19,912 nt of DNA from Calditrichota bacterium. GTDB taxonomy: Bacteria > Calditrichota > Calditrichia > RBG-13-44-9 > J042. The notes beneath the pieces were generated by a model. It searched no databases. It saw nothing but the letters and a program-made list of their open reading frames with translations, and was not told the origin of the DNA. Location of the stretch: the NCBI GenBank assembly GCA_013150955.1, contig JAADJD010000064.1, forward strand, positions 1-19,912, in the 5' to 3' direction. A program made the position numbers and the translations under genes. Below, in pieces: positions 1-19,912 of the stretch (position 1 is its first letter; each line of letters opens with the position of its first letter).

Positions 1-34
1 CCTTACCACTTACGTTTCTCAATTCTAATTTCTA

Positions 35-1048
35 TTACCAATCAAAAACAAAAGAAAATACCTGAACATCCTCAAGAACACCATAATGGGCGTACGCATA
101 GTCGATTTTTAATCGACTATTTCCAAACAATCCAATATTAAACCCAACACCGGCACTAAAGGTGCGGGTATCATGATTTAGAATGTATCCACCCCTAAGT
201 GCAATAATATTGTTAAAAATATATTCAGCCCCCATATTCACACGTTCTAAATTGTCATTTGGATGTTCGCCATATACAGCAATAGTTAATTTTTGATTTT
301 CCCTATCTATTGGGTCATATCCAATACCAAATCGAAACGTAAGTGGTAAGGGGAAATATTTATATTCACTGGGATAATCTTCAAAAACACCTTTAATGCC
401 ATTAAAATCATAATACGTTCCTTTTAATCGAACTTCCGGACCGAAATTTCGAATCGCCATTGTCATCCTTAAACTTGGAAAAAGAGTAAATCCTGGAAAA
501 TATACTGTACCAATATCCACAGCCCATGCGCCCGTCCTGTTATCTTCGCCCAATCCACTGGTTAGATCTTCGCTTACATATTTAACCGTTCCACCTACTC
601 CAAATTGTTCTGTTAACATACGGGCAAAGGAAATACCTATAGAATAACTAACTGCGGAAAAGGTGTTTCCGGTACCATTTTGCTGAAATTCGGTAGTTTC
701 TTCAATAGGCCCTGAATCTAAATAAACAAGATTTACACCAACCACCCCTACACGGTTGATCTTTTTTGCGAAAGCAAATCCTTCAAAGCGCATGTCTGCT
801 AAATATTCCGAATGATTTAAAAATAGACTGGCATTTTCTACAAAATTCAAAGTGGCAGGATTCCAAAACATAGCAGAAGCATCATTTATCATCGGATCCA
901 CCGCATTACCTAAAGCCACCCCGCGAGCACCGACACCAATTTTTAAAAATTGATACCCTGCCGTTCCGACCTTTGCAATACCCTGAGCCCAAATATAAGT
1001 GGAGCTCCATAAAATGAACGTTAGAACAATTCCTATTATTTTTTGCAT
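35..1048 (-). CDS. PorV/PorQ-family outer-membrane beta-barrel protein
   Basis: The protein has 337 residues. It has a Sec signal peptide over about residues 1-22 (hydrophobic core then a WAQ cleavage-type end). The mature part begins with the family hallmark 'GTAGYQFLKIGVGARGVALGNA', which continues into a segment rich in N, P and A ('MFWNPA'), and it ends in alternating aromatic residues (FVFDW) as barrel proteins do. PorV/PorQ proteins are FadL-like barrels. PorV is the T9SS component that shuttles sorted substrates to the attachment complex, but many paralogues in this superphylum have no assigned substrate. The ATG is preceded by a strong AGGAGGAG site. The gene lies 59 bp after the T9SS-sorted protein gene, so it is probably the last gene of the same transcript. 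Whether it acts in secretion or as a substrate channel cannot be told from sequence. Confidence 0.85.
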   Translation of the reverse strand: MQKIIGIVLTFILWSSTYIWAQGIAKVGTAGYQFLKIGVGARGVALGNAVDPMINDASAMFWNPATLNFVENASLFLNHSEYLADMRFEGFAFAKKINRVGVVGVNLVYLDSGPIEETTEFQQNGTGNTFSAVSYSIGISFARMLTEQFGVGGTVKYVSEDLTSGLGEDNRTGAWAVDIGTVYFPGFTLFPSLRMTMAIRNFGPEVRLKGTYYDFNGIKGVFEDYPSEYKYFPLPLTFRFGIGYDPIDRENQKLTIAVYGEHPNDNLERVNMGAEYIFNNIIALRGGYILNHDTRTFSAGVGFNIGLFGNSRLKIDYAYAHYGVLEDVQVFSFVFDW

Positions 1049-1107
1049 GCTTATTCTCCTCCTAGTCCTGATTTATCTGCAGATTGAAAAACACCTAATC
1101 TTTGATA

Positions 1108-3381
1108 TCATCTCAGAAGTACAAATTTACCTATTTTCTTGGCGTTTTCTGTCTCCACAACATAGATATATAACCCTGTCTTAACAAATTGCTCATTTCT
1201 AGACTTTAAATTCCAGGCTTCCTGGGCTGTACCATCGGTATGCATGATGGTAATTACCCAATCACCCGTTATAGTATAAATTGATATTTTACAGACCGGA
1301 GGAAGATTCTGAAAAATTATCTTATCCTTATACTGTTCCTCAAAAATGGACGTCCCTTTATAAGGGTTGGGGACAACGGTGACTTTTTCAATATCATAAT
1401 CTGGATATATATTTCCGCTGGCATCGACCTCATATAATCCTTTTGGCACAACCGGCATAGGAGCACCTGTTTCAGGATCAACTAAATAGTTATTTCTTGG
1501 AGATTCAATGGAATTTAACGCGGGCCTTCCTCCGGAAGCCGGTTTATCGGGGTCATAAGCAACCACAGTATAATAATAGGGGATTCCATTCAAAGGTCGA
1601 GAATATTCTTGTCCCATAAATACCCCACCCGTATCCACAAATGTGTGGACAATGTCCGGTAAATTGGTCCATCCCAACGTATCCCCTTCTGTCGTAACCA
1701 CAGGTACTTCCTCATCCACATTGTCGAAGGCAGCAATCATTTGCCAATCTTTAGGTGTGTACATTGCCCGATAAATTTTATACCCTCGAAAATCCACCTC
1801 ACCTAACATTGGATCGATGGTTGTTTCGGCCACATTATCCCAGGTTAATTCAACCCGATTGTAACCTGGACTATAGGTTAAATTTGGCATAGGTGGTGGA
1901 ATGGGAAGGACCCAATGTAAATCCTCATTAGGGGCGGAAGGTTTATAAGGATTACTATGTCGTGAACCCGAATAGTATGCTTTTAATGCGGCATCAACAT
2001 TTTGTCGTAACCCCATCAATCCCTTTCCAACAGCCGCCACATACACAAAGCGAAGTGTATCCCCTGGTTTAAATTCTTCAAATGGACCAGAAGTTGTCAT
2101 CCATCGATAATCAAATTCCGGAGCTCCCAAACTAAGGGGATTGGGAAGAAATGGGGTTACACTAAATACATGCGTGGCTGTCATGTACTGATATTTTTCC
2201 AAATCTGAGCCGGGATCACTTTCCCAATTCCACCACTGGTGAGTATATACTCTTCGCAGTGTATCTTCTGGAGCGGTATAATACGGAGGATGATCGGTGT
2301 AAATTAATGCTCCACCGATAAAACCGTCGACGGGACCAAACGATTCATCTCGTTCACCGGTATCATCTTTTGCGGTAGCGGAATTGTCTGCATCATACAT
2401 GTAAGACATATTACGTGGGACTGCATATCCTCTTAATGTATCACCATTTACGATGGCAATTTCTCCGGCTTTACCATATGGACCATCTACATGCCATCGT
2501 AAAGGTGGTCCTTTGGGATCAAGGATAACCGACCATTCATCCCAAAACCCATCTGGATGAATCTTGGATGGATCATAATTGGGCTGGGGCTTCTTGTTTC
2601 CTAAATATTTACGACCATATGGGATCCCCCACTCGTCATAACCATCTAATACCCCATTGCCGTTTAAATCAATATTTTCTACAATATCTTCAATATCGGT
2701 ATCTGTAGAATTACCGTCCCAACCATCAAAATCAACTAGATCGTCTATATGGGGATCGGTCACGTCGGCCACTGTTCCCACATCGCAGTCATAAACCCAG
2801 CTTACATGAAAATTTTTAATTGTAAAAGGGCCATCTTCTAATTGATCACTGACATTGATCACTTCATATTCATAAGCGATAAAATCATCATACTCTGGAA
2901 TGGACCAAGTCAATCCTCGCTCGATGACCTTTATTCCCATTGGTTTTGTGTCATGCCAGAAGGGATCTAAATCATCATAAATAACTAAATGATCCTCAAT
3001 CGATTTCCCCGGACCGATATAAAACTCTGACCCTTCCTCAGGCCAAAATTCATAGTTTCCATAATCTGCATGGGAACTCCGGATTTCACCTTCTACAATT
3101 CCACCAACCCAGAAACGGCCTTCCCACAGATAACTAATTTGAGATCCACCTGGCCATTCCATGGAAGGCCGACCGGTCTGATCGGCAGCTGGATCTCCAT
3201 AGCGTCCAAAATTGCTATTGGTATTCCAAAGTGTTCCAACTTTATGAACTTTATCTGTTGCTAACTTATTATTTCCTGTAGGTTTTTGAAATCCAGCTTT
3301 TGATTTTTTATCTCTTGCCATCCCTGGATTTATTAAAACAAGCACACAAATAACAAGAAGAAGTTTAATGGCTAATTTCAT
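1108..3381 (-). CDS. Secreted surface protein with fibronectin III-like region and T9SS type A sorting domain
   Basis: The protein has 757 residues and a signal peptide at about 1-22. The N-terminal half resembles a family seen in Calditrichota/Marinimicrobia-type genomes ('GTLWNTNSNFGRYGDP', then 'SYLWEGRFWVGG'). I know no biochemical function for it. A single Ca-loop-like motif (DLNGNGVLDGYDE) lies near residue 240. A fibronectin type III-like segment spans roughly 495-640 (VELTWDN, then GYKIYRA, then YYYTVVAYD). The last ~90 residues match the T9SS type A sorting domain: 'VVPNPYKG', then 'ISIYTITGDWV', then 'TGLYIYVVE' and a terminal 'GKFVLLR'. It is therefore predicted to be exported across the outer membrane and kept on the surface or released. 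The start has an excellent GGAGGAGG site six bases upstream. It sits between the TonB-dependent receptor and the PorV-like gene, which suggests a surface partner of that receptor (inference). Confidence 0.75.
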   Translation of the reverse strand: MKLAIKLLLVICVLVLINPGMARDKKSKAGFQKPTGNNKLATDKVHKVGTLWNTNSNFGRYGDPAADQTGRPSMEWPGGSQISYLWEGRFWVGGIVEGEIRSSHADYGNYEFWPEEGSEFYIGPGKSIEDHLVIYDDLDPFWHDTKPMGIKVIERGLTWSIPEYDDFIAYEYEVINVSDQLEDGPFTIKNFHVSWVYDCDVGTVADVTDPHIDDLVDFDGWDGNSTDTDIEDIVENIDLNGNGVLDGYDEWGIPYGRKYLGNKKPQPNYDPSKIHPDGFWDEWSVILDPKGPPLRWHVDGPYGKAGEIAIVNGDTLRGYAVPRNMSYMYDADNSATAKDDTGERDESFGPVDGFIGGALIYTDHPPYYTAPEDTLRRVYTHQWWNWESDPGSDLEKYQYMTATHVFSVTPFLPNPLSLGAPEFDYRWMTTSGPFEEFKPGDTLRFVYVAAVGKGLMGLRQNVDAALKAYYSGSRHSNPYKPSAPNEDLHWVLPIPPPMPNLTYSPGYNRVELTWDNVAETTIDPMLGEVDFRGYKIYRAMYTPKDWQMIAAFDNVDEEVPVVTTEGDTLGWTNLPDIVHTFVDTGGVFMGQEYSRPLNGIPYYYTVVAYDPDKPASGGRPALNSIESPRNNYLVDPETGAPMPVVPKGLYEVDASGNIYPDYDIEKVTVVPNPYKGTSIFEEQYKDKIIFQNLPPVCKISIYTITGDWVITIMHTDGTAQEAWNLKSRNEQFVKTGLYIYVVETENAKKIGKFVLLR

Positions 3382-3419
3382 CGGTCCTCCTCCGCTGCAT
3401 CTTTTTATAGGCTTTTATT

Positions 3420-5639
3420 TTAAAAATCTAACTGAATACCCAACCGCCAAATGGTGCCCTCACTATAAACAGACGGATCTTTATATTTTCCGGAAGGATC
3501 CCCAAACTGTTCATACCATTGCACATCCGCCAACCGTAAAATGTTCTTCTGATTGAAAAGAGCATCCTGCAAATTATTGGTCCATAAGAAAAACTTGATT
3601 TGATACCTATCCGCAATTCGGATCTGCTTATCAATAATCATATCCAGATAATAGGTTGGTGGCATACGTTTATCATTAATCGGTGGGATCCGAGTCCGAG
3701 CAATTGATGAATAGGGCAGTCCACTTCCATAACGAAACACCACATTCATCCCTACATCATCCAAGATAGAGGTTCCAAAGAGCAATCGCCGATCCCTTGG
3801 TATGCGCAAATTAATATTTGCATTTAATGTATGGCGCTGATCCCAATTGAGGAAATTTTCCTCTGCAGGGATAACGTCTCCCGCCCAAGTAAAAATATAA
3901 TTTTGATGAGGACTAGATGATTTTCCTTTTGCTATAGAATAAGTGTAATTGATTGTACCACCAATATAACGTCCCATACGTTTATATAATTGAATCTCGA
4001 AACCGCGTACGTTGCCATAGTCTAAATTCTGATAAATCGTATAATAATTTGCCACAGTATAATACACTTGCCGAGTATCCGTTAACCCTCGAATATCTTT
4101 AAAGAATCCTTTAATTTCGATTTTCATATTATTAGAAAACTGATGCTTAATCCCTACTTCATACGATGTTGTCGTTTCAGGTTCAATATTGGGATTTCCT
4201 ACAATGGGAAACGCCCCGGAAAGGTCAAACGATAGATTTCGATAAAGGATAAAGAAGCGAGGAATCTGAAAATACCGCCCGTAATTGTAATAGAGAACGT
4301 CCCTTTCAGTAATTGGATGAGAAATTCCAAACCGCGGACTAATATACCACCGAGGCTTGGTTTTTATTGGATTTTTAATCTTACCTTCACCCGGTTCCAC
4401 AGGATCATCTAAATCAGCAGGGAAAGTAACATTGGAGTGAAAATAATCAAGGCGAATTCCGGCATTAAGAATCATTCCACCATATTCCATCTTATCTTCA
4501 AAAAAGGCAGCAAAACTATAAGGTTTCACGTGATCAATTAATTGACCATACACGTTTCCACCCGAAGCCAAATCCCGATCAAAATCAAAAATATCATAAG
4601 AATTATATTCAATACCGGTTTTTATCTCATTGTATTTATCTACTTGACTATAGAAAGTAATTTTACCCGTATAGGTAAATTTCTCGTCAAAATTCCATCG
4701 GGCACGGCTATAGGTTAATCCAGTGCCATAATGATAGTACCCATCATTATCTTTAATATTATTTATAGGTACATCATTCCAGGAAATCCATTGATCGCGG
4801 GGTCGACCTTCCGAAGCATCAATGTATCCATTATTGTTCTCATCTGTAAACAGATCAGTATTTCCACCATCCCGTTTCCAATCCCACTCCAAATTCCCAT
4901 TTAAATCTTCATGACGGTTATCCCCATCGCCATCAACATCTTCTGGTATGCCATCACCATCAACATCGTAGTACAGATCCAGCACCCCATCTCCATCCAT
5001 ATCTTCATTTATATTTTCACGGACATTATATTTCATAGATGTGCGGAATCGACTGAATTTGGCCTCAAAGAACGATTTGCTACCAACCTGATAAACCCAA
5101 TTCAAAATAATATTATCCCGACTTTCCTGAAAAGTGGGCAAGTGATCTAACATATTAAAAATATCGATTTTGCCATTGTGATTGAGATCTTCTGTATCAA
5201 TTTTTCCATTTCCATTTAAATCTTCGCCTGGATCAAGAATACCATTTCCATTAATATCTTCGGTGTCCAATCGACCATTTCCCCACCACTTAACAATGGC
5301 GCTATCTTGAGGATTCTGAGTAAGATCCACATAATTGCTCAAAGTCGAGTCCACATTCTGGGGCATTAACATACTACGATCCTCGTTTACTTTCCGAGTC
5401 CAAAGAATGCCCCAATTCCCGGAATCTTCCCAGCTTCCTAGATAAGAAATCGAAATTTTATGTTTTACATTGGGGGTCCACGTCAGCTTTGTTTGAATGC
5501 TAAAAGCTTTATTATATAAATTTTCAAATCGTCCGTTGTCTTTACGCCATTCACCGGCCACAAAGAACTTTATCTTGTTTTTATACCGTTTTAACAACAA
5601 ATTTGTGATCGGCTCGGGCCCTCCAAATGAAAACTCCAC
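3420..5639 (-). CDS. 3' fragment of the TonB-dependent receptor (beta-barrel with Ca-loop-like repeats)
   Basis: This 739-residue frame begins nominally at a GTG inside the barrel (VEFSFGGPEP). It has no signal peptide and no purine-rich site upstream, so it is not a separate gene. It contains most of the receptor barrel, with regularly spaced aromatic/basic strands and 'YYNYGRYFQIPRFF', 'NPNIEPETTTSYEVGIKHQF' and 'WDQRHTLNANINLRIP', which are typical of Oar/Cir-like receptor barrels. An inserted set of acidic DxNxNG/DxDxDG loops is encoded at about 4818-5267. It is expressed only if the upstream frame is restored. Confidence 0.65.
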   Translation of the reverse strand: MEFSFGGPEPITNLLLKRYKNKIKFFVAGEWRKDNGRFENLYNKAFSIQTKLTWTPNVKHKISISYLGSWEDSGNWGILWTRKVNEDRSMLMPQNVDSTLSNYVDLTQNPQDSAIVKWWGNGRLDTEDINGNGILDPGEDLNGNGKIDTEDLNHNGKIDIFNMLDHLPTFQESRDNIILNWVYQVGSKSFFEAKFSRFRTSMKYNVRENINEDMDGDGVLDLYYDVDGDGIPEDVDGDGDNRHEDLNGNLEWDWKRDGGNTDLFTDENNNGYIDASEGRPRDQWISWNDVPINNIKDNDGYYHYGTGLTYSRARWNFDEKFTYTGKITFYSQVDKYNEIKTGIEYNSYDIFDFDRDLASGGNVYGQLIDHVKPYSFAAFFEDKMEYGGMILNAGIRLDYFHSNVTFPADLDDPVEPGEGKIKNPIKTKPRWYISPRFGISHPITERDVLYYNYGRYFQIPRFFILYRNLSFDLSGAFPIVGNPNIEPETTTSYEVGIKHQFSNNMKIEIKGFFKDIRGLTDTRQVYYTVANYYTIYQNLDYGNVRGFEIQLYKRMGRYIGGTINYTYSIAKGKSSSPHQNYIFTWAGDVIPAEENFLNWDQRHTLNANINLRIPRDRRLLFGTSILDDVGMNVVFRYGSGLPYSSIARTRIPPINDKRMPPTYYLDMIIDKQIRIADRYQIKFFLWTNNLQDALFNQKNILRLADVQWYEQFGDPSGKYKDPSVYSEGTIWRLGIQLDF
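4818..5267 (-). other. Array of Ca-loop-like motifs inside the receptor barrel
   Basis: This stretch encodes about eight acidic loops of the form D-x-[DN]-x-[DN]-G-x-[ILV]-D: DINGNGILD, DLNGNGKID and DLNHNGKID in one cluster, then DMDGDGVLD, DVDGDGIPED, DVDGDGDNRHED, DLNGNLEWD and DENNNGYID in a second. They fall at about residues 381-413 and 466-527 of the rebuilt 992-residue protein. Such loops resemble EF-hand, dockerin or thrombospondin type 3 calcium sites. Their position between barrel strands suggests surface-exposed loops. Calcium binding is inferred, not shown. Confidence 0.7.
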
Positions 5640-5657
5640 ATTTTGGAGTGCATGGCT

Positions 5658-5685
5658 ATCGGTTAAAGGACATCGGTTAAAGGAC
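5658..5685. repeat. Exact 14-bp tandem duplication
   Basis: Two abutting identical copies of atcggttaaaggac lie at 5658-5671 and 5672-5685. Because 14 is not a multiple of three, the second copy shifts the receptor frame and creates an in-frame TAA at 5663-5665. The coding frames on either side match once one copy is removed. Confidence 0.95.
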
Positions 5686-6412
5686 TATCCCCAAAATCAC
5701 TGGTTTTATATCGAATACTCCCACTATATTCTGGGCCACCCTCCTTTATCACCATATTAATAACACCCGATTGCGCATTCCCATATTCTGTACTAAATCC
5801 ACCGGTAATAATAGAAACTTCTTCCACTGCAAATTCGGGAACATCCGCTTCAAAGGTATTAAACATGGGATCCATTGTCGTCACCCCATCAATCTGATAC
5901 AATACCTCGCCGGCGCGTCCGCCACGAGCGTGTCCCGCCACAAATCCCGGTGTAATGGCAACAATATCCTCCACATTTTCGAAAGGTATGGCCATAATTT
6001 CCTCAGAGGTAGCGATTGTTCGGCTTGCTGTTAAGTCTTTCTGAATTAAAGGCCTTTCTGCCACAACAACAACCTCTTCTCCTAATTCCAAGGGGACTTC
6101 TTCCATCTGAATGTCTATGCGTGTAGTTAAGTCGGCCATGACACGCACTTGTTGCACTTCAACTGTTTTATAACCTAAATATATCGCTCTTAGTGTATAT
6201 GTCCCGGCAGGTACATTTAAAATAAAATATACACCATCCACATCAGTCGCTGCTCCGTAATTTGTTCCTTCTAAAACAATATTGACACCTGGTAGAGGCT
6301 CACCTGTCTTTTTATCCGTCACCAAACCCGTAATTTTACCCGTTGTACCTGCGAATAAATATCCAACTAGAAAGAGCGACAATAATACAATAAGGAGCTT
6401 AAAATAACGCAT
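5663..6412 (-). CDS. 5' fragment of the TonB-dependent receptor (signal peptide, regulatory domain, plug)
   Basis: As read, this frame encodes 249 residues and ends 'SPLTDVL' then TAA, with the stop created inside the second 14-bp repeat copy. It holds the signal peptide, the carboxypeptidase-regulatory-like domain ('GKITGLVTDKKTGEPLPGVNI', 'GVYFILNVPAGTYTLRA') and the plug, including 'VLYQIDGV' and 'VEEVSIITGGFSTEYGNAQSG'. It lacks any barrel, so the product could not form a receptor on its own and would probably be degraded in the periplasm. See the whole-gene entry. Confidence 0.7.
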   Translation of the reverse strand: MRYFKLLIVLLSLFLVGYLFAGTTGKITGLVTDKKTGEPLPGVNIVLEGTNYGAATDVDGVYFILNVPAGTYTLRAIYLGYKTVEVQQVRVMADLTTRIDIQMEEVPLELGEEVVVVAERPLIQKDLTASRTIATSEEIMAIPFENVEDIVAITPGFVAGHARGGRAGEVLYQIDGVTTMDPMFNTFEADVPEFAVEEVSIITGGFSTEYGNAQSGVINMVIKEGGPEYSGSIRYKTSDFGDSPLTDVL

Positions 6413-7004
6413 AGCAACATTCCCCTTAATTATTTAAGCTATTTATTTCTAATTTAATAAAATTTAAAAAATTAATTGGGAAGACCCTTCCCTGACCTAC
6501 CGATGATTCGATACAACACTTAAACGATGCCAAGGATCGCTGAAAATTGCTTGAAAAAATATTAATCCCAAACTTCCAAAAGAGCAGGATAAAAACGTTT
6601 AATACGTTTGATAAAAATTATTAAACTTCAATTTCTGCTGGAGATCTTTAAACCTCCTCCACCTGACCAAATTTCAGAAAATATTTTTCTTCACGACAAA
6701 TTATAAAATTTTCTGATAAATTAATCAAGAAAAAAAATGAATCCCTCCCAACTTTCCCACATAAGCCGCCTCCAACGCAAACGTTGCATTTTACAAAAAT
6801 AATACCAACCGCGCGCTTTATTCAATGGAACGCATTTATTTTCAATATATTACGGCAAAATGAAGCGGGCGGAATTTTCCAGAAAAAGGTTCTATTTTTC
6901 CGTCTGAATCGGAAAAAATTTTCCGGTAAGAAAATGGGAAAAATAAGAACTTTGAAAATAGACGTGGCTTCAGTCTACTTATCAGAAAATCTTTTTCTAA
7001 AATT
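6413..7004. other. AT-rich non-coding stretch upstream of the receptor gene
   Basis: I see no convincing gene here. Because the receptor is read leftward from 6412, its promoter should lie in the left part, but I could not pick one with confidence. Small symmetric elements are present: GGGAAG-ACC-CTTCCC at 6478-6492, an 8-bp stem with a 7-base loop at 6895-6917 (TTTTTCCG/CGGAAAAA), and a 12-bp inverted pair (ATTTTCTGATAA at 6708-6719, its complement at 6979-6990). None can be assigned a role. Confidence 0.5.
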
Positions 7005-7158
7005 TTAACCCAGATTTCGTATTGGCCTACGAATTACACGAATTAACACAAATGAAATTTTATTTAAAAAAACTGTATGAAAATGTCTTCCGCGATTTGT
7101 TAGCTATTTTTTGGATTCATTCCCATGATTCGCGGTTTCATGCAAAATTTGGATTTAA
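7005..7158. repeat. Dispersed palindromic element, copy A
   Basis: This is a divergent copy of the element described for copy B. It starts TTAACCCAGATT, has the conserved block CCTACGAATTACACGAATTA in its left arm and GATTCGCGGTTTCATGC in its right arm, and ends near AAATTTGGATTTA. It abuts copy B directly, in the same orientation. Confidence 0.8.
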
Positions 7159-7332
7159 TTAAACCCAGATTAAGAAATAGCCTACGAATTACACGAATGA
7201 ACACAAATAAAACCAATAAAATACACTGGATTGTGTCTGGATGAAGATGTGTTCCAGGGTTTGTTCGCGATTTTGTAGATATTTTTTGGTTTCATTCGCG
7301 TGATTCGAGGTTTATTGCATAATTTGGGTTAA
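7159..7332. repeat. Dispersed palindromic element, copy B (best full copy)
   Basis: This is an element of about 174 bp bounded by TTAAACCCAGATT on the left and AATTTGGGTTAA on the right. The two arms are imperfect inverted repeats over about 45-50 bp: the left arm reads ACGAATTACACGAATGAAC and the complement of the right arm reads TCGAATCACGCGAATGAAAC. The centre carries CTGGATTGTGTCTGGATGA and TGTTCCAGG, which can form a short inner stem. It has no coding capacity. The structure fits a MITE-like or extragenic palindromic repeat. Confidence 0.85.
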
Positions 7333-7354
7333 AAAGAGCTTGTCCGTTTCAACA

Positions 7355-7407
7355 TAAAAAACCCGGGAATGCGTTGTGGATTGGTGGACGAACGCTTAAC
7401 CCCGGTT
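7355..7407 (-). terminator. Candidate intrinsic terminator downstream of the phosphodiesterase gene
   Basis: Read on the minus strand, an imperfect inverted repeat (AACCGGGGTTAAGCGTT and AACGCATTCCCGGGTT, loop about 15 bases) is followed at once by a run of six T. The stem has two paired blocks interrupted by an internal mismatch and a small loop. It lies about 150 bp beyond the stop of the phosphodiesterase gene and could end that transcript. Confidence is moderate because the stem is imperfect. Confidence 0.35.
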
Positions 7408-7558
7408 CAAAGACCCAGATTAAAAAAATTCTGCCATTTTCTGCATTCCAAAGAACACACTCCAAATTGAAAAATCTGGATACCATCTATTTCCACCCAC
7501 CGGAAAACCCGATCGTCATTCTGCAAATGAACACCCACTCCACATTCGCTTAAGCCAA

Positions 7559-8809
7559 TCATCTTAAAAACGTGCGTACGGAATCCAGACTCCCATCATT
7601 GGGAACGGGCGGCACATTTAATAAATGGGCCATCAATTCGTACAAATGGATGTTCAAAAAGTCATCCACCACCACACCGGATTTAAATGCGGGCCCCCTG
7701 GCCAGGAAAATCCCTCGCATGGATGCCAGGCGATTATCATATCCGTGGGTACCGCCCTGGTAGCGATCCCGGTTGCGTTCAAAGTACGATCGGGTGGTGA
7801 TGCTCCACCCTTCGTCTGCAAGGCCGATGATGGCCGGGATTCGTATGTGGGATCGATAATGAAAGCGCTCCGGAATTTCCGCTTTCTTATAAACCGTCAG
7901 GTGCGGATGGGCTCCTTTTAGTGCCCGGTATACGGAATCCACCCGTCCCGGTCGGGGACGCAGCGCCAATACCGGCGACCAGTCCAACACTTCCACATGA
8001 TCCATTTGAATATAGTCATCCAGAAAAATAATGCGATCGGGAGATGTGCGGGTCATTCCATGATCGGAAACGATGATCAAGTTGACCTGATCGTCCATTC
8101 CCATGCCGTGTAATCCATCCAGCAATTTCCCGATAGCACTGTCCACCTGCTGAACAGCACGGGCCAATTCGGGAGAATCAGGCCCGGCACGATGTCCCCA
8201 ATGATCTACATCTGAAAAATACAAGGTAATGAGAACGGGACGTTTTTCTTCCGGCAGGGCCAACCATTCCAGCACCTGCTGGACGCGGGCGTCGTTGGGG
8301 ATGGATTCGTCATACGTTTTCCAGTAAGTGGGACGATATCCCTGAATTTCGGCCTCGGAACCGGGCCAGAAAAAGGTGGCACTCACCTTGCCCGATTTTT
8401 CCACCGTCACCCATATGGGTTCACCACCATACCAGCGGCCATCCTGCACTGCCTGACGATTGCCTAAACTAAAATAGGCATCCATGATCGGATCGTACAT
8501 GCGATTGGCAATCACCCCGTGATGTTCTGCGTACAGACCGGTAACGATGCTGTAGTGATTGGGAAAGGTTTTGGTGGGAAAAACTGGAATCAGTGCCTCT
8601 GCACGCACGCCTTCGCGAGCCAGGCGCGTCAGATAGGGCGGTTGATACGTGTCCAGATAATCCCACCGGAATCCATCAATGGAAATTAAGATCAGGGGAT
8701 GAGTTGGGGTGTCCTTAATCTGCTGACAGCCGCTACCAGCCAGCCAGGCCAATAAAACAAAAGCAATTATTTGCAATCGATACGTTTTCATTTTCGAGAA
8801 TAAAATCAT
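7559..8809 (-). CDS. Ectonucleotide pyrophosphatase/phosphodiesterase-family (alkaline phosphatase superfamily) lipoprotein
   Basis: The protein has 416 residues from an ATG with GGAGGAG six bases upstream (8816-8822). An earlier TTG lies inside that ribosome site and is rejected. A hydrophobic N-terminus ends in GSGC, so Cys28 is a likely lipid-attachment site, although the Gly at -3 is atypical. NPP-family catalytic features are all present: 'LISIDGFRWD' (metal Asp45), 'FPTKTFPNHYSIVTGLY' (nucleophile Thr81, Asn84), 'DVDHWGHRAGP' (Asp202, His206), 'VSDHGM' (Asp249, His250) and 'GGTHGYDN' (His355). Family enzymes hydrolyse phosphodiester or pyrophosphate bonds with two zinc ions. The substrate here (nucleotides, nucleotide sugars or phospholipid headgroups) is unknown. 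It is predicted to sit in the periplasm or on the outer membrane, and it follows the MBL-fold gene across a repeat element. Confidence 0.9.
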   Translation of the reverse strand: MILFSKMKTYRLQIIAFVLLAWLAGSGCQQIKDTPTHPLILISIDGFRWDYLDTYQPPYLTRLAREGVRAEALIPVFPTKTFPNHYSIVTGLYAEHHGVIANRMYDPIMDAYFSLGNRQAVQDGRWYGGEPIWVTVEKSGKVSATFFWPGSEAEIQGYRPTYWKTYDESIPNDARVQQVLEWLALPEEKRPVLITLYFSDVDHWGHRAGPDSPELARAVQQVDSAIGKLLDGLHGMGMDDQVNLIIVSDHGMTRTSPDRIIFLDDYIQMDHVEVLDWSPVLALRPRPGRVDSVYRALKGAHPHLTVYKKAEIPERFHYRSHIRIPAIIGLADEGWSITTRSYFERNRDRYQGGTHGYDNRLASMRGIFLARGPAFKSGVVVDDFLNIHLYELMAHLLNVPPVPNDGSLDSVRTFLR

Positions 8810-8837
8810 TGGCAACTCCTCCAATTTGCGGGTGGAT

Positions 8838-9010
8838 TTAACCCAGATTATGTATTTGACCAGTATTACACGAATGAAACAAACAAAAATAATAAAATTT
8901 TAATGGATTATATCTGGATGAAAACGTGTTCCAGGATTTATTCGCGATTTTGTGGCTATGTCTTGATTTCATTCGCGTGATTCGCGGTTTAATGCACGAT
9001 TTGGGTTTAA
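8838..9010. repeat. Dispersed palindromic element, copy C, overlapping the end of the MBL-fold gene
   Basis: This copy of about 173 bp is bounded by TTAACCCAGATT and GATTTGGGTTTAA, with the same arms as copy B (ATTACACGAATGAAAC on the left, TTCATTCGCGTGATTCGCGG on the right) and the same centre (TCTGGATGA, GTGTTCCAGG). It fills the junction between the hydrolase gene and the phosphodiesterase gene. Its right arm lies inside the hydrolase reading frame. Its left edge stops about 15 bp before the phosphodiesterase ribosome site. Confidence 0.85.
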
Positions 9011-9811
9011 GATTTCACGGGCAAACGCCTCGATCAAGTTTTTCTTCGCAAAATGAAATCCGGTCATCCAGGTTAAAAAACCTTCGGCTCCCAGCAGCTG
9101 GTGCGCAATTTCTGTGGTTGACTTCCCCATTTTCAACAGATGTGCGGTCTGGTCGTAAATGTCCTCCAGAAACCGAAGTTTTTCCTGTAACAACTGACGC
9201 CCCCTTTGTTGCATCCCCCGATGTGAACAGAAAATTACCTGAAATTCGTATTTTAATACCCGCCGGAGACTGCGCATTTCCTCCAGCGGATCTTCCACTT
9301 TGCGAATAATCCGGGGTCGGGTGGTAATGAACAAATCCCCGGTAAACAACCACCCTTCCTGCGGAATGTAAAAGCAAACCATGTCATCGGTGTGCCCTGG
9401 CGTGTGAATGGGTACAATCTCAAGTCCCTTTTCGGTCTGGATGGTTTCGGGGAAGGCCTGAACTTTCACCGCGGACGGCATGCCCCAGATGATGCGCCGG
9501 TAGTACTGCAACCGAAATCCCTGCTCAAAATAGCGGATTCCCCTGGGATGGACATATATGGGTATCGAGAATTCGGCATGGATGGCGGCACTATTCCCCC
9601 CGTGGTCTTCGTGATGATGGGTGACGTACACTGCCCGCACGGGATGGGAAAGCAAGATGGAGCGGACAATAGCCCACTGATTTGGCGGCCCGGTATCGAT
9701 CAGCACATCATCCAATCGATAAAGGTAACAATTGGTATTGATCCAGCCGCGGAAGCGTCCCACCCGCCATCCCTGAACCCGATCATATTCCACATAATCA
9801 AGCAAACCCAT
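8969..9811 (-). CDS. Metallo-beta-lactamase-fold hydrolase
   Basis: The protein has 280 residues from the ATG of 'MGLLDYVEYD'. A TTG four codons upstream (9823) is an alternative start, since AGAGG lies just before it. The metal-binding motif THHHEDHGG gives His65, His67, Asp69 and His70. It is followed by 'HTPGHTDD' (His140), 'FTGDLF' (Asp159) and 'FCSHRG', the full dinuclear metal set of the glyoxalase II/MBL superfamily. There is no signal peptide, so it is cytoplasmic. The C-terminal ~60 residues are helical, as in LACTB2-like members, but the substrate cannot be named. The last 13 or so codons (from 'LNPNRALNRESRE') and the stop lie inside repeat copy C, so the native C-terminus has probably been replaced. 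It follows the glutamate dehydrogenase gene with a gap of about 125 bp. Confidence 0.85.
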   Translation of the reverse strand: MGLLDYVEYDRVQGWRVGRFRGWINTNCYLYRLDDVLIDTGPPNQWAIVRSILLSHPVRAVYVTHHHEDHGGNSAAIHAEFSIPIYVHPRGIRYFEQGFRLQYYRRIIWGMPSAVKVQAFPETIQTEKGLEIVPIHTPGHTDDMVCFYIPQEGWLFTGDLFITTRPRIIRKVEDPLEEMRSLRRVLKYEFQVIFCSHRGMQQRGRQLLQEKLRFLEDIYDQTAHLLKMGKSTTEIAHQLLGAEGFLTWMTGFHFAKKNLIEAFAREILNPNRALNRESRE

Positions 9812-9935
9812 GGTGTGCCACAATTGCCTCTATTAAAAATGCGCGAGCGTGTCCACACAAACCGCGGATCGCCCGTTAAAATGTTCTTCATCCCCCGATT
9901 GGTCGCCATTTACCAAACGATTATGTTACATCCGC

Positions 9936-11210
9936 TCAGGCATAAAGTCCCCGCAACTCCGATGCCCGCGTAACCCGCTGAATGGCCAGGATGAAGGCGC
10001 CAATTCGCATGCTCACATTATATTGCCGGCTGGTTTCCAGCACCTCGTTGAACGCCCGCACCATGATCCGTTTCAGATCCTCATCCACCTGCTCCTTACT
10101 CCAGTAATATCCCATGCGATTCTGCACCCATTCCAGATAGGAGACGGTGACCCCGCCCGCATTGCACAGAATATCGGGAATAATAAACACGCCTTTTTTA
10201 TCGAGGATTTCATCGGCTTCGACCGTGATGGGCCCATTGGCACATTCGGCAATCAGCCGGGCTTTTACATTGGGCGCATTCTCCTCGGTAATCTGATTTT
10301 CCAGAGCCGCCGGAATCAGAATATCCACATCCAGCTCCAGGAGCTTCATGGGATCTTCTATTTTCTGAACGTTGGTATGTTTTTCCAGCCCTTCCAGCAC
10401 CCAGCGGCGATTCCGGGCACACACTTCCAGCGCCTTGGGAATATCGATCCCGGCAGGATTGTAATATGCCCCGCTGATATCGGAAATGGCCACAATTCGC
10501 GCCCCATCTTCGTACAAAAATTTTGCGGCATTGGAACCCGCATTGCCAAATCCCTGAATGGCCACAGTTGCTCCTTTAATCTGCATATTCAGATGCTGGG
10601 CGGCTTCGTGAACACAGTAAACCATTCCCAGCGCAGTGGACTCGCTGCGCCCCTCCGATCCACCTATTTCCAGGGGCTTTCCCGTGATAACACCGGGTAA
10701 ATATTCCTTTTTGTGCATGGAATAAGTATCCATCATCCAGGCCATAATCTGGGGATTGGTATTAATATCCGGCGCGGGAACATCTTTATTGGGGCCAAAA
10801 ACTTCCGCCATTTCGGCAATATAGCGTCGGGAGAGATTTTCCAGCTCGTTGGGGGATAATTCCGCAGGATCCACCACCACCCCACCTTTTCCCCCACCAA
10901 ATGGAATGTTTACCACTGCACACTTGTAGGTCATCCAGAACGCCAGCGCTTTGACTTCGTCCACTGTCACTTCGGGATGAAACCGAATGCCCCCCTTGGC
11001 CGGCCCGCGGGCAATGCTGTGCTGTACCCGAAATCCCTTAAATATGCGAATCGATCCATCATCCATGCGAACCGGCAAATTTACTTCTATCACCCGCCGC
11101 GGTTCCTTAATCATGGCAATCTGGCTTTCGCTCAACTTCAGGATCTTTGCCGCCTTATCGAACTGCTTCAGAGCGTTCTCGAACGGATTCCGCTGTTTGA
11201 GAAAGGACAT
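9936..11210 (-). CDS. gdhA: Glu/Leu/Phe/Val dehydrogenase family, probable glutamate dehydrogenase
   Basis: The protein has 424 residues, the usual length of hexameric class I bacterial and archaeal GDHs. It interconverts glutamate with 2-oxoglutarate and ammonium using NAD(P). The substrate domain carries 'ARGPAKGGIRFHP' (Lys72), Lys96 in 'TYKCAVVN', the catalytic lysine in 'PFGGGKGG' (Lys108) and the proton-relay Asp148 in 'PAPDINT'. The Rossmann domain carries the glycine motif 'GFGNAG' (220-225). Coenzyme preference is not clear, although the Asp at the end of strand 2 (AISD) leans to NAD. No regulatory domain is present. GGAGGG precedes the ATG by about eight bases. A 300-bp gap upstream suggests its own promoter. 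Assignment to glutamate rather than leucine/phenylalanine/valine rests on overall similarity of the motifs. Confidence 0.92.
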   Translation of the reverse strand: MSFLKQRNPFENALKQFDKAAKILKLSESQIAMIKEPRRVIEVNLPVRMDDGSIRIFKGFRVQHSIARGPAKGGIRFHPEVTVDEVKALAFWMTYKCAVVNIPFGGGKGGVVVDPAELSPNELENLSRRYIAEMAEVFGPNKDVPAPDINTNPQIMAWMMDTYSMHKKEYLPGVITGKPLEIGGSEGRSESTALGMVYCVHEAAQHLNMQIKGATVAIQGFGNAGSNAAKFLYEDGARIVAISDISGAYYNPAGIDIPKALEVCARNRRWVLEGLEKHTNVQKIEDPMKLLELDVDILIPAALENQITEENAPNVKARLIAECANGPITVEADEILDKKGVFIIPDILCNAGGVTVSYLEWVQNRMGYYWSKEQVDEDLKRIMVRAFNEVLETSRQYNVSMRIGAFILAIQRVTRASELRGLYA

Positions 11211-11510
11211 GGATGCTTCCCTCCAGACTATTCGTTTTATATGGTCTTTTCATTTATGCCAACAAGAATGCCATTCCCGCAGCAGCCATTCTTCCTACCA
11301 TTGCGTCCGTTCCTTAAAAAATCCTTACTCGATTGTCATGGGTTTCCCGGCCCTTCTGCCTATCAACGCCTTGAACGGATACAGCCTTTTCTGAGAACGG
11401 ACATTTATGAAAAATTGAATTTAGATATAGCGATCAGAAATGGCAACCTGAAAGGAAAAGTTTGTCGGCGCCGTCGGGTGGGGATGTGAGTCGCGATGGG
11501 AGACACACGT
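11211..11510. other. Intergenic region between the envelope operon and the glutamate dehydrogenase gene
   Basis: No convincing gene is present. The region should contain the end of the right-hand operon and the promoter of the dehydrogenase gene. An 8-bp palindrome CGGCGCCG occurs near 11467, but I see no T-tracted hairpin. Confidence 0.5.
11236..11265 (-). promoter_or_regulatory. Candidate promoter for the glutamate dehydrogenase gene
   Basis: On the minus strand TTGTTG (11260-11265) and TATAAA (11236-11241) are separated by 18 bases and lie about 25 bp upstream of the start codon. They match the general sigma-70 pattern. FCB bacteria often use different consensus sequences, so this is tentative. 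Confidence 0.25.
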
Positions 11511-12287
11511 TCAGTGCCAGATGACCATGTAGATAAAAACAGCCAGACTGGTGTACGAGATGGCCAGCGTAATATCTGTTAGCCGATCGTATTTTCGGGT
11601 CTCTCTCCAGTACCGATCGATTAAATCGGGATCGGCAGTGCTGAGGTAGCGATTGTAGCGTTCATCCGCAATGTTTTTGAAATAAAATGCCAGCCAGTGG
11701 GTTAACACGGTGCTTCCCAGCAGCGCAAATTTGGCTCGCGTGTGGGTACGGGGCCAGATCCGCAATAGCGGTGGCCGCTGTTTTTCAACAAAACCCGCTT
11801 TCCGGGTCAATCGAACTGAAAACGGAGTGGAATCGTTCAGCACGAAGGTGTAGGGTTCATACCCGGATTTTTTCAGGGTCAATTGCTTTCCACGGTACTC
11901 GTAAAAGGGAAGGTAAAGGGGAGTCAATCCCACAGTGGTGGTATCCTGCAACAAAAAAGCACCCGGCGGGATGGAGTTAATAAACACGAGGGGCACAAAA
12001 CGAATGCTGATGGTGGTGTCCTGTCCCGGACGAAGGGTAAGCCGAAACTGGCGATCCTGCAGATTCCAGATACCACTGGCCGGTGCAAAAACGCGGATGG
12101 AATACGTTCCCGGTGTCAAAGCCAGATCCTGAATGGGTGAGTATCCAATCCAGCTGGAATCGATCTGCACCGCGCAGCCCGGCGGTTCCGTTAACAGGGT
12201 AAGGCGAGCCGTTTGCCCGGCGAATAAAACTGCGCTGGCGAGTAAGATTCCGGTGAATATAGTCCACAATCGAAACGGAAACTTCAT
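11511..12287 (-). CDS. PEGA-domain membrane protein of unknown role
   Basis: The protein has 258 residues from the ATG that overlaps the stop of the upstream gene (ATGA), with an N-terminal signal or anchor (about 5-23). Two PEGA-like beta-sandwich repeats follow: 'LTLLTEPPGCAVQIDSSWIG' with 'LTPGTYSIRVFAP', then 'VFINSIPPGAFLLQDTTTVG' with 'LTLKKSGYEPYTF'. PEGA repeats occur in extracytoplasmic parts of bacterial surface and sensor proteins and may bind cell-wall material. Two hydrophobic segments (about 190-210 and 235-257) suggest membrane anchoring, with a charged stretch rich in R, Y and D between them. Coupling to the BamB-like gene suggests a joint envelope role. The function is not known. 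Confidence 0.7.
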   Translation of the reverse strand: MKFPFRLWTIFTGILLASAVLFAGQTARLTLLTEPPGCAVQIDSSWIGYSPIQDLALTPGTYSIRVFAPASGIWNLQDRQFRLTLRPGQDTTISIRFVPLVFINSIPPGAFLLQDTTTVGLTPLYLPFYEYRGKQLTLKKSGYEPYTFVLNDSTPFSVRLTRKAGFVEKQRPPLLRIWPRTHTRAKFALLGSTVLTHWLAFYFKNIADERYNRYLSTADPDLIDRYWRETRKYDRLTDITLAISYTSLAVFIYMVIWH

Positions 12288-13486
12288 TTTTCTTTTATCT
12301 CCCGTGCAAATTTTTCGGTTGCAAACACCCACAGATGCTTATTGGCCGAGTGCACAATCAAATATTGCTGATAAATGATGGGGGATGACTTCACCGCCGA
12401 ATTCAATTCCTGCTTAAAGATCAACTTCCCGGTAAAGCGGTTTAGAATGTACAGGTTGCCATCCCAGCTGCCCACGTAAATGTAATCGGGACTGCTTAAC
12501 GGCACCGTATTGACAATGCCATCCGTCTGGAAGCGCCAGAGGATGGAACCATCGGTTTTCCGCAGGGCCACTACTTCGTGGCCATTGGTTCCCACATAAA
12601 GAAAGTTCTGGTACAGGGAGGGACTGCTGTAGATTGAGCCATTCAACTGAGTTTGCCAGCGCACCTTACCGGTTTTTTGATCCAGGGCCACAAATAAACC
12701 ACTCACCGTTCCCACAAAAACCATTGAATCGTCCAGAACCGGATGCGAAAAGATGGAGCCATCCAAAGAGGTTTGCCAGAAGGTGATGCCGGAGGATACG
12801 TCCAGCGCGTACACGTTCCCCTTATCGTCAGCAAAGACCACCAGGGGATCCCGAATGGCCGGAGACGCATGAATGGCTGCTCTGGCCTTGAACGTCCAGA
12901 TGGAATCGCCGCTGCGGGCGTTCACGCAAAAAAACTGCCGACGGTTGGTTCCAAAATAGAGCTTGCGATCCCAGTAAATGGGGGATGTGGTGACTTCCGG
13001 GTATTGCCGCCGGAATTCCCGCTGAGTATTGCGAAGATTTAAGGCCAGCAGGGTGTGTTTTCCCAGATTAAATCCCGCGAAAAGAAACGGCAAATGAATA
13101 CTGGGCACGTGCCCCATAGTGGGGCCAATCCGATCCATGGCAATCTGTTCCTGCCGCTCCAGGGAAAAGATGGCCAGGTTGCCATTGCGCAAGGCAGTGA
13201 CGAGGTAGGACTCGAATGCCAGTGGATGATCGGTAACCACCGAATGCAATCGCTGTTTCCAGACCAGAGCAATAGGCGGATGCACATTGCGGTTCACCGC
13301 GTGATGATGTTGCGGATTTTTCCCCAGCATCAACCAGGCCTCTTCGGGATCAATTTGACTGGCGGGAGGGACGGGCAGCGGGATTAATCCGGCACATGCC
13401 AGGATCAAGCTCGCTCCCAGTGCCACAAGCCACCATCCTTTTCGCCAAAGATTTGGTCTGATTGTTCTGCTCATCGGTTTCTGCAT
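12284..13486 (-). CDS. BamB-like PQQ-type beta-propeller lipoprotein
   Basis: The protein has up to 400 residues. A signal peptide with lipobox ILAC (about residue 31) predicts a lipoprotein. The body is a series of PQQ-type propeller blades: 'SPIYWDRKLYFGTNRRQFFCVNARSGDSIWTF', 'VVFADDKGNVYALDVSSG', 'VFVGTVSGLFVALDQKTGKVRW', 'LYVGTNGHEVVALRKTDGSILW' and 'IYVGSWDGNLYILNRFTGKL', about six to seven blades in all. It lacks obvious PQQ-dehydrogenase catalytic residues. In proteobacteria BamB has this fold and supports BamA, and here it follows an Omp85-type barrel gene by 52 bp. The first ATG sits one base after AAGGAG, and a second ATG (MSRTIRP) lies 13 bases after it, so the true start could be four codons in. 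Its stop overlaps the next gene as ATGA. Confidence 0.8.
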   Translation of the reverse strand: MQKPMSRTIRPNLWRKGWWLVALGASLILACAGLIPLPVPPASQIDPEEAWLMLGKNPQHHHAVNRNVHPPIALVWKQRLHSVVTDHPLAFESYLVTALRNGNLAIFSLERQEQIAMDRIGPTMGHVPSIHLPFLFAGFNLGKHTLLALNLRNTQREFRRQYPEVTTSPIYWDRKLYFGTNRRQFFCVNARSGDSIWTFKARAAIHASPAIRDPLVVFADDKGNVYALDVSSGITFWQTSLDGSIFSHPVLDDSMVFVGTVSGLFVALDQKTGKVRWQTQLNGSIYSSPSLYQNFLYVGTNGHEVVALRKTDGSILWRFQTDGIVNTVPLSSPDYIYVGSWDGNLYILNRFTGKLIFKQELNSAVKSSPIIYQQYLIVHSANKHLWVFATEKFAREIKEK

Positions 13487-13538
13487 GCTCCTTTTCCCGC
13501 ATTCCGCAGCATCGCCTCACGGAAACGGGCATGATCGA

Positions 13539-16388
13539 TTAGAAGTCCCAGCCAAAGAAAAATTGGGTAAACCAATCCGAGGTAAATTTCCGAAAGTCCG
13601 TTCGCCGACCAATGTCCAGGCGTAAGACCAGAAATCCCCCCAGATTGACCCGCAACCCTACCCCGGTGCTGCCTAGCAGGCCGTTCCAGCGGTCGTTCCA
13701 GGCATTGCCCGCATCTACAAACAATGCCCCGCGGATGGCATGAAATCCCAGACCACCAAAAGGAAACCGAATTCCCAGATAATCAATGAACGGAAAGCGC
13801 AGCTCGTGGGACATAAACACAATCTTTTCGCCGCGGATTGACCACTGGGGATATCCCCGCAAATCCCAGCTTCCCCCCAGGTAAAACCAGCGGGTCTCCT
13901 TGCCATCGTTCCACAGGGTTAAAAAGCGAATGGCATAGGTCAATTTGGGATGCAACCGATAGTAATAGCGGTAGTCCAGCATCAGCGTGTAATAATTGAC
14001 ATTCGACCAGCGAATATCAAAGGTATTCCCGATGGTGATATTAAAGCGGCTCCCATCGATGGGGCCGGTATACGACCAGATGGAATTGTCGTGAATAAAG
14101 GTCAGCCAATTGGAAGACAGGATAGCAAAGCGACGGCGAAACCCCAGGAAGTCCTTATCCGAATAACTAAAATTGGTATTGAATTCCAGCCGTTTAAATT
14201 GAGAGAAAGGATAGCTGATCGTAAAGAAGGCACCCATGCGCTCTTCGTAGAAAAACCCATCCTTAAAATTAAAATAACGTCCCGCAAACCGAAACAATCC
14301 GTAACCGTAATTGGTGCGCTTTTCCAGAGACAATTTGGTGATGGCCACATTGAAACTGCGGAGAAAGTCGCTGCGGGATTGCGCATTGTTGTACAACAGG
14401 ATGTAATACTGATCATTCCCCAGCACGTCGGTGAAAGACAAAAGCGCTCCGCCACTGGTGCCCCAGAAGGGATCCTGACTCACCTGCGTCTGGGCAATGT
14501 CCAGATCGTACTTCTTTTTATATTTCAATTTGGCCAGCACTTTATCTCCCGAGATTTTCCCTGGCTTCCAGTGAATGGCATGGCGGATGGGATCGTTGGG
14601 ACGCACGCGGCGGGACTCAAAGAACCGCTTTTGAATATCCTTCATCAGGCGAATCTGGAAGCGATTGTTTTCGTAGACCGAAAAGACCAGTTGGTCATCC
14701 CCCACCCACTCGGGATCGAAGGCTGCGTTGGCAAACCAGGAAATCTGTTTTACCAGAACGCGTCGGTAGGCATCGCCATCCCACTCCTGAACGGCCGAGA
14801 CATCCGCAATCCAGATGTTGAGGGATGAATCCCGATCGGAAGTAAAGGCAATAAAGCGTCCATTGGGTGACCACACCGGGGTAAAATCCTGATGTTTCCC
14901 GGAGGTCACATAATAAATCAAATGCTGCTCCAGATCGTAGATGAAAATATTGTAACTCCATTGCGATCCCCAGATGGTTCGATCGGACGAAAAGACGATT
15001 TTCTTGCCATCCGGGGAGAACGAGGGAGCGTTGTCTTCATAAATATCATTGGTTAGCTGAATCAGCTCGTCCCTGTCCAGATCCAGCACAAACAAATCCT
15101 TTTTCCCGCCGAATTGCAAACCACTAAAGACCACTTTTTTGCCATCGGGTGAAAATGCGGGAGAAGAAATGCCCACAATATCCGGCCACTGGTATTTCCG
15201 AATGATCTCTTCCTGCTCGATATCAAAAATGTAAAGGGCATCGTTTTCGCCGCTTTTGGTGGAAAATACCAGCCGTCCGTCACGGGAGACATCAATTTTG
15301 CTGGAGAATATGTGAAAGGCCTCAAACTCGGAACTGCGCTCTCCCTTGATCAACACCTTTACCTTCTCTTTTTCGCGAAACTTTAACGGCCGGAGATCCG
15401 TGAGGTAAATGTTCGTATAGCCGGTTCGATTGGCCACGAAAACCAGCTTCTGGCCTTCGGGAGATGGGTAAAAGGCCGGCTTAAAATTAAACCCTTCCTT
15501 CACGATGGTCTCGGTAATCATGCTGGAAAAATCGTGGTCTTTGAGCAGCGGATAGTACTTCTTGCGCAAATCGTACAACCACATGCGATCAAACTCTTCG
15601 TAACTGATGCCCAGCACGCTTTCAAACACCCGCGAAAACTTTCCGTACTTCCAGATATTGTCCATCATCAACAGAATGGTCTCTTCTCCGAACTTTTCGG
15701 CAATGTAGGACAGAATGGCCTGCCCTTCCTTGTACATCATGTAGGAGCCGGTAATGCGGTACATCTCGGAAAGGGGCACGATGTAGTTATTGAGCACCGC
15801 ATCGCGGATGACCATTTCGGCCTGGGCATCCCACTCCGACGACCAGTATTCTGCCAGCCCTTCCACAAACCAGAGGGGTGGATAGGTGGCGTCGTAGCGG
15901 CCATGCTCCTTGTTGGCAAAATAAACCTTGCTGTGCATGAACACATGCACCAGCTCGTGCTGAATGACTTTGCGGAACTGGTTCAGGCTCCCATTCGCCG
16001 GGATGACTACCCGTCCCTTGAGAAATTCAAAAAATCCCCCCACACCTTCGGGAATGAATCCCGGTGTGACGTTGGTCTGTTGAAAGTGCAGGTGGGAACT
16101 GTAAAAAATCAGGGGAATTCGTCGGCGGATGGTAAAATTGAACTTGTTTTCCAGATAGCGATAGCTTTGCTCGGCAAAAAACGCCCCCTGCTCCGCCAGC
16201 TCTTCCATTTCGGGGTAATAATAAATATCGAAGTGCTTCGTCTTCAGAATGTGCCAGCGAAATTCCGTGTATTGCACCTTGTTGCGGCCAAAATAAAACC
16301 ACTGCCCTTTTACGGGGACAACACCCCCAATCAACACCCCCAGCAGTGACAGCCCGAACACCCATTTCGATACCAATTTGCCCTTCAT
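13539..16388 (-). CDS. Gluzincin-type peptidase / TolB-like propeller / Omp85-type barrel fusion protein
   Basis: The protein has 949 residues from the ATG of 'MKGKLVSKWVF', where a signal peptide begins. An upstream in-frame TTG would place 19 residues before the signal and is rejected. Domains in order are as follows. A peptidase_MA-like metallopeptidase domain (about 40-280) carries 'QHELVHVFMH' (HExxH: His144, Glu145, His148) and 'WFVEGLAEYWS' (likely third zinc ligand Glu176). A TolB/PD40 beta-propeller (about 300-600) shows repeated 'SPDGKKVVFS'-type blades. An outer-membrane beta-barrel of the BamA/TamA (D15) type (about 620-949) shows 'GGSWDLRGYPQWSIRG', 'SHELRFPF', 'ALFVDAGNAW' and a terminal 'FGWDF'. 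It is predicted to be anchored in the outer membrane with the other domains in the periplasm. The cargo is unknown. The next gene encodes a BamB-like propeller. Confidence 0.85.
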   Translation of the reverse strand: MKGKLVSKWVFGLSLLGVLIGGVVPVKGQWFYFGRNKVQYTEFRWHILKTKHFDIYYYPEMEELAEQGAFFAEQSYRYLENKFNFTIRRRIPLIFYSSHLHFQQTNVTPGFIPEGVGGFFEFLKGRVVIPANGSLNQFRKVIQHELVHVFMHSKVYFANKEHGRYDATYPPLWFVEGLAEYWSSEWDAQAEMVIRDAVLNNYIVPLSEMYRITGSYMMYKEGQAILSYIAEKFGEETILLMMDNIWKYGKFSRVFESVLGISYEEFDRMWLYDLRKKYYPLLKDHDFSSMITETIVKEGFNFKPAFYPSPEGQKLVFVANRTGYTNIYLTDLRPLKFREKEKVKVLIKGERSSEFEAFHIFSSKIDVSRDGRLVFSTKSGENDALYIFDIEQEEIIRKYQWPDIVGISSPAFSPDGKKVVFSGLQFGGKKDLFVLDLDRDELIQLTNDIYEDNAPSFSPDGKKIVFSSDRTIWGSQWSYNIFIYDLEQHLIYYVTSGKHQDFTPVWSPNGRFIAFTSDRDSSLNIWIADVSAVQEWDGDAYRRVLVKQISWFANAAFDPEWVGDDQLVFSVYENNRFQIRLMKDIQKRFFESRRVRPNDPIRHAIHWKPGKISGDKVLAKLKYKKKYDLDIAQTQVSQDPFWGTSGGALLSFTDVLGNDQYYILLYNNAQSRSDFLRSFNVAITKLSLEKRTNYGYGLFRFAGRYFNFKDGFFYEERMGAFFTISYPFSQFKRLEFNTNFSYSDKDFLGFRRRFAILSSNWLTFIHDNSIWSYTGPIDGSRFNITIGNTFDIRWSNVNYYTLMLDYRYYYRLHPKLTYAIRFLTLWNDGKETRWFYLGGSWDLRGYPQWSIRGEKIVFMSHELRFPFIDYLGIRFPFGGLGFHAIRGALFVDAGNAWNDRWNGLLGSTGVGLRVNLGGFLVLRLDIGRRTDFRKFTSDWFTQFFFGWDF

Positions 16389-16401
16389 CCTGCCCGTTAG
16401 T

Positions 16402-16659
16402 TTAATACACCCATTGACTAAAGTCCAGAACGAACGTGCTGGCAAAATTTTTTTTGAATTTTACCCGACCCACTGGCATCATCTCGTCCATTAGCAATTT
16501 ACCGGACGGGATTGCCAGCCATCGGTATTCCCCGAACCGTGCCCTTCCCTGATGTGAAGTGGTTTCCTTTAAACGGACAACATCCCGGTTGGCCGCTGGA
16601 TTCACCCTTATTATCGAACGTCCGGCATGGAAATTAATTTCCCACTGTTTGTTGCCCAA
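16402..16659 (-). CDS. Small hypothetical protein filling the rluA-family/peptidase gap
   Basis: An open frame of about 85 codons fits almost exactly between the RluA-family stop (16671) and the peptidase-barrel start (16388). No ATG is present near its start, and TTG at 16659 is the best candidate, with no clear ribosome site. The sequence is polar and beta-rich (NKQWEINFHAGRS, EYRWLAIPSGKLLMDEMMP) and has no motif I recognise, no signal peptide and no membrane segment. It could be a genuine small operon gene, translated by coupling from the gene upstream, or a chance frame. Confidence 0.4.
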   Translation of the reverse strand: MGNKQWEINFHAGRSIIRVNPAANRDVVRLKETTSHQGRARFGEYRWLAIPSGKLLMDEMMPVGRVKFKKNFASTFVLDFSQWVY

Positions 16660-16670
16660 TCGGAATTCGG

Positions 16671-19594: not shown

Positions 19595-19714
19595 TAACCG
19601 CGTTTTGTACCGTGAACATTATGGAATCGTTCGTGAAACATAGAAATTTAATAAAATGCACCTTAGAAACAACGTTTATCCTGAATTTCATGGTCGCCAG
19701 AAGGAGGTCAAATT

Positions 19715-19767
19715 TTAACCTGGATTTTGTAGTCACCACGAATTACCCGAATGAACCCAAATAATAT
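19715..19767. repeat. Left-arm half-copy of the dispersed element (D)
   Basis: This begins TTAACCTGGATT and carries CACGAATTACCCGAATGAAC followed by CCAAATAATA. It matches only the left arm of the full element. It lies upstream of the ClC gene and is the first of three consecutive left arms spaced 52-53 bp apart. Confidence 0.75.
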
Positions 19768-19819
19768 TAATCCAGATTATGCATGAGACCACGAATTGCA
19801 CGGATGAACACGAATAAAA
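19768..19819. repeat. Left-arm half-copy of the dispersed element (E)
   Basis: This begins TTAATCCAGATT and carries CCACGAATTGCACGGATGAA. It directly follows half-copy D and precedes copy F. Confidence 0.75.
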
Positions 19820-19912
19820 TAATCCCAGATTAAGCAATAGCCTACGAATGACACGAATTAACACAAATAAAACCAATAAAATACATTGGAATGTGTCTGG
19901 ATGAAAATGTGT
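19820..19912. repeat. Dispersed palindromic element, copy F, cut by the window end
   Basis: From CCCAGATTAAG (19824) to the last base, this copy matches copy B at 83 of 89 positions by my count, including the left arm, ACAAATAAAACCAATAAAAT and the central TGTGTCTGGATGAAAATGTG. It probably continues beyond the window as a full copy. Confidence 0.85.

Follow-up and report, generated by a model that had tools for sequence, protein, structure and literature searches.

A 14-bp tandem duplication in a probably accessory TonB-dependent receptor gene of a Calditrichota bacterium, probably a recent loss-of-function mutation

In a 19,912-nt stretch of DNA from a Calditrichota bacterium (contig JAADJD010000064.1; the whole stretch is called the window below), two neighbouring reading frames resemble the halves of one TonB-dependent receptor (TBDR) that part at a short exact repeat. 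Does this repeat record a mutation that disabled the gene, a reversible switch of a surface protein, or a mistake made during assembly? An earlier reading of the letters alone (the sequence-only reading) had named all three possibilities.

One receptor gene in two pieces

Positions 5658-5685 of the window hold two exact abutting copies of the 14-bp unit ATCGGTTAAAGGAC, whose form on the minus (coding) strand is GTCCTTTAACCGAT. This can be read directly from the sequence, and TRF returned 2.0 copies with 100% match and no partial third copy. The duplication splits one TBDR gene into a 249-aa piece and a 739-aa barrel frame, and the frame shift falls just past the plug domain. At the site, the two frames read YKTSDFGDSPLTD and SHALQNVEFSFGGPE; the barrel frame is open further upstream of 5639, where it reads PLTDSHALQNVEFSFGGP. 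The sequence-only reading had described the duplication as the only lesion, with a stop inside the second copy and exactly 993 codons once one copy is removed. Indeed, TAA occupies 5663-5665, subtraction of 14 from 2993 nt leaves 2979 nt (993 codons), and neither piece contains a further stop or frame break. An exact tandem with a unit length of 12-60 appeared in none of 30 Markov-1 simulations of the window, an approximate control since the simulation filter was too strict for units with matching ends; the duplication is thus not readily given by chance.

The membership of the gene in the TonB-dependent receptors follows from Plug (PF07715) in the N-terminal piece and the barrel (PF00593) in the C-terminal piece, both above their Pfam cut-offs. 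The SusC/RagA subfamily proper (TIGR04056) was not reached, the N-terminal piece giving 77 bits with a cut-off of 368 when the pieces were scored separately.

Table 1 Features of the receptor locus and its cassette in the window
Feature	Positions	Strand	Evidence
PorV/PorQ family outer-membrane protein (NF033709), intact, third cassette gene	35..1048	-	
757-aa protein, weak T9SS type A sorting domain (TIGR04183), intact, next cassette gene after the TBDR	1108..3381	-	
TBDR barrel, shifted frame, undamaged, 739 aa	3420..5639	-	PF00593, 2e-26
Second copy of the 14-bp unit, with the premature TAA inside	5658..5671	-	sequence, frames, TRF
TBDR N-terminal piece, 249 aa plus stop: signal peptide (by eye), CarboxypepD_reg-like 27-115, Plug 124-216, premature stop	5663..6412	-	
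First copy of the 14-bp unit in the coding direction	5672..5685	-	sequence, TRF
Low-GC stretch: cassette and its upstream intergenic region	1..7300	.	

A search of 40 genomes returned one close ortholog of the barrel, G018:C246, from a genome of another family. It is a single intact frame of 969 aa with both halves, about 65% identical in each, and the gene order TBDR, 757-aa protein, PorV is common to the window and G018. From this intact syntenic ortholog, we conclude that the receptor gene should be one frame. The ortholog reads YKTSDFSKISAKLKDKHMVQNFEFSIGGPE through the duplication site and has no repeat at the equivalent position. The comparison with related genomes, which the sequence-only reading had proposed as a check, thus agrees with its claim of one gene split in two, and the combination of a disabling lesion here with an intact ortholog elsewhere makes the locus a probable frameshift pseudogene. 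The loop from the last plug strand to the barrel differs in length among receptors, so that loop length alone cannot settle the history of the site. Two further observations concern these regions. Between 4800 and 5260, the barrel frame contains many DxDGDG / DLNGNGKID calcium-binding-like repeats, which are fewer in the ortholog. Another TBDR, at L014 (G013:C154), belongs to a low-quality genome that is 62% complete; here too the frame is interrupted in the plug-to-barrel loop, apparently by a deletion and not by a tandem duplication.

Could the barrel still be produced? A separate start at GTG 5639 was considered and rejected: this codon is neither preceded by a ribosome-binding site nor followed by a signal peptide, and for these reasons the barrel protein is probably not made from it. 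The intact barrel frame would also be compatible with ribosomes reading through the break by programmed frameshifting. This explanation, which we find hardly credible, was rejected as well, because the usable interval contains no slippery heptamer: TTTGGGG, the single nearby word of the X XXY YYZ kind, lies out of phase and precedes a barrel-frame TAG. Moreover, the ortholog needs no frameshifting.

Origin of the duplication

On balance, we favour a real and recent loss-of-function mutation of an accessory TBDR by the 14-bp tandem duplication, and hold this to be rather likely. The sequence-only reading had offered a recent break as one option, and the undamaged barrel frame supports it through a rough age bound. 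In this frame (740 codons), 4.5% of substitutions give stops, and, with an assumed 0.05-0.1 indels per substitution, the neutral divergence since the break would be less than about 1.1-1.6%, a value by which a further lesion would be seen in 95% of copies free of selection; the assumed indel ratio makes this bound rough, so that it says recent and not how recent.

The duplication may have arisen by replication slippage or template switching. Against a recent mutation speaks the lack of microhomology at the exact breakpoints (0 nt): simple slippage would predict its presence, and its absence sets the locus apart from microhomology-mediated tandem duplications. The nearest candidate is a 5-bp GATAG...GATAG pair on either side of the unit, spaced 15 nt apart where the unit measures 14. 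Pairs of this quality arise in 5.8% of random placements; this one may have guided slippage, a possibility with weak support. No second genomic copy of the receptor region was found that could have been a recombination partner. According to the review PMC13207564, which cites Dan et al. 2021, the duplications in ssp1 of S. pombe are likewise short, lie inside a coding gene, cause a premature stop and could collapse back, whereas the present locus has no microhomology pair at its exact breakpoints and belongs to a bacterium.

An exact duplication without microhomology would also remain if an insertion sequence had been excised and its 14-bp target-site duplication had stayed whole, and the genome does have DDE_Tnp_1 transposases. 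We regard such a footprint as very improbable. No base of any element is left at 5658-5685, and no Ku gene was found in the genome, which makes end joining after a clean excision unlikely. No element was shown to make a 14-bp duplication, and the inverted repeats at three transposase loci revealed no clear element ends, several of the loci lying at contig ends.

The main rival to recent inactivation is an assembly error: a scaffolder or gap filler would have joined two contig ends without merging a 14-bp overlap, and the receptor of the cell would be intact. We take this possibility seriously, while considering it doubtful. An unmerged overlap would likewise have no microhomology at its breakpoints. 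Furthermore, two N gaps, of 8 and 86 bases, were seen in about 0.53 Mb of the scaffolds. Contig joining was thus done, which counts against the recent-mutation reading; however, the flanks of both gaps were examined and are not duplicated. These gaps, located in the window's own genome at L076 16654-16661 (8 bases) and L098 942-1027 (86 bases, less certain), suggest a scaffolded assembly.

The genomic background bears on the same question. The genome encodes 24 Plug-bearing receptors, and the duplicated TBDR is the only one that is broken: its frame has 256 codons, and the other 23 have open frames of at least 621. One broken receptor among 24 is also the expectation from a lone error. A 420-kb sample of the genome, made up of the window and twenty 20-kb stretches, holds six exact tandem duplications with a unit of 10 bp or more. 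Four are under no long frame or a short one only, another (12 bp) is in frame inside a 688-codon frame, and only that at 5658-5685 breaks a gene. As none of the other five disrupts a long gene, each being either elsewhere or in frame, false joins are not generally in excess.

A switch or a by-product

Assuming that the DNA is real, the two copies could form an evolved reversible switch, in which slippage between them toggles the surface receptor as in phase variation. For this speak the exact abutting copies in a gene for a surface receptor, a usual phase-variable target, with the rest of the gene intact, and the reversible microhomology-mediated tandem duplications within genes that the same review reports for fission yeast, the nearest counterpart described. 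In simple-sequence-repeat phase-variable (contingency) loci, for example those of Neisseria, Haemophilus and Campylobacter (review PMC11868660), exact tandem copies in a surface-protein gene likewise set the frame by their number. However, those loci have a tract of many short units, and the 2.0 copies of 14 bp place the present locus outside this class. In addition, the breakpoints lack microhomology, the G018 ortholog has no repeat at the site, no other receptor of the genome is broken in this way, and a second allele was not found. The on/off switch of the sequence-only reading thus gained no positive evidence, and we consider it unlikely. No description of a bacterial switch built of two such copies was found in the literature searched. 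Tandem-repeat copy number has been reported to vary in bacterial cultures and also to be wrong in a reference assembly (PMC12817950).

If the duplication is a simple mutation, its two copies may nevertheless collapse back in rare cells, like any short tandem duplication, as a by-product and not as an evolved switch. Frameshift pseudogenes that result from small tandem duplications in early gene decay provide a close parallel: they too have one small lesion in an otherwise intact frame of a dispensable accessory gene, and we saw no difference from them in this locus.

The cassette and the fate of the receptor

The receptor belongs to a three-gene, type-IX-secretion-flavoured cassette at one contig end. 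The GC content of the cassette is 0.398 (1-6412) compared with 0.505 at 7559-19912, and the lowest 6.4-kb stretch in the genome sample has 0.413, none going down to the value of the cassette. A search at E 1e-100 returned no barrel ortholog from the rest of the congener G001 (98% complete), nor from any genome of the same order that was searched. G001 is sufficiently close that an ortholog would be recognised, since its counterpart of the window's glutamate-dehydrogenase-like protein shows 95% identity. The two genomes are collinear from about 6754 to 19553 of the window, and the G001 contig ends at the edge of this part, so that an empty cassette site is not visible there. A scan of the genome collection for close relatives returned distant ones only.

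The low GC content and the lack of an ortholog in the congener and same-order genomes searched are in line with an accessory gene open to loss, and the presence of the only close relative in another family suggests that the cassette came by horizontal transfer. Differential loss would be an alternative explanation of this distribution; in the simplest reading, the cassette is probably dispensable and acquired.

The window also contains copies of a dispersed repeat, mostly between genes and including words such as CACGAATTACACGAATGAACACAAATAAA, at 7020-7320 and at 19735-19872, where it is partly tandem with a 53-bp unit. It recurs genome-wide (L071, L074, L077, L078, L082-L087).

To summarize, the duplication would shift the frame just after the plug of a TBDR whose three-gene cassette is low in GC and was probably acquired horizontally. 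What is made would be an exported plug that lacks its barrel, and hence a null receptor. Should the duplication be an artefact, the locus is a warning against calling the receptor absent. It would be notable only if both alleles coexist, which we think quite improbable: one-copy cells would then make the receptor and two-copy cells would not, a two-unit toggle in a bacterial surface receptor and a very simple reversible switch. If the mutation is real, it shows a surface receptor, probably an acquired one, at the beginning of its loss.
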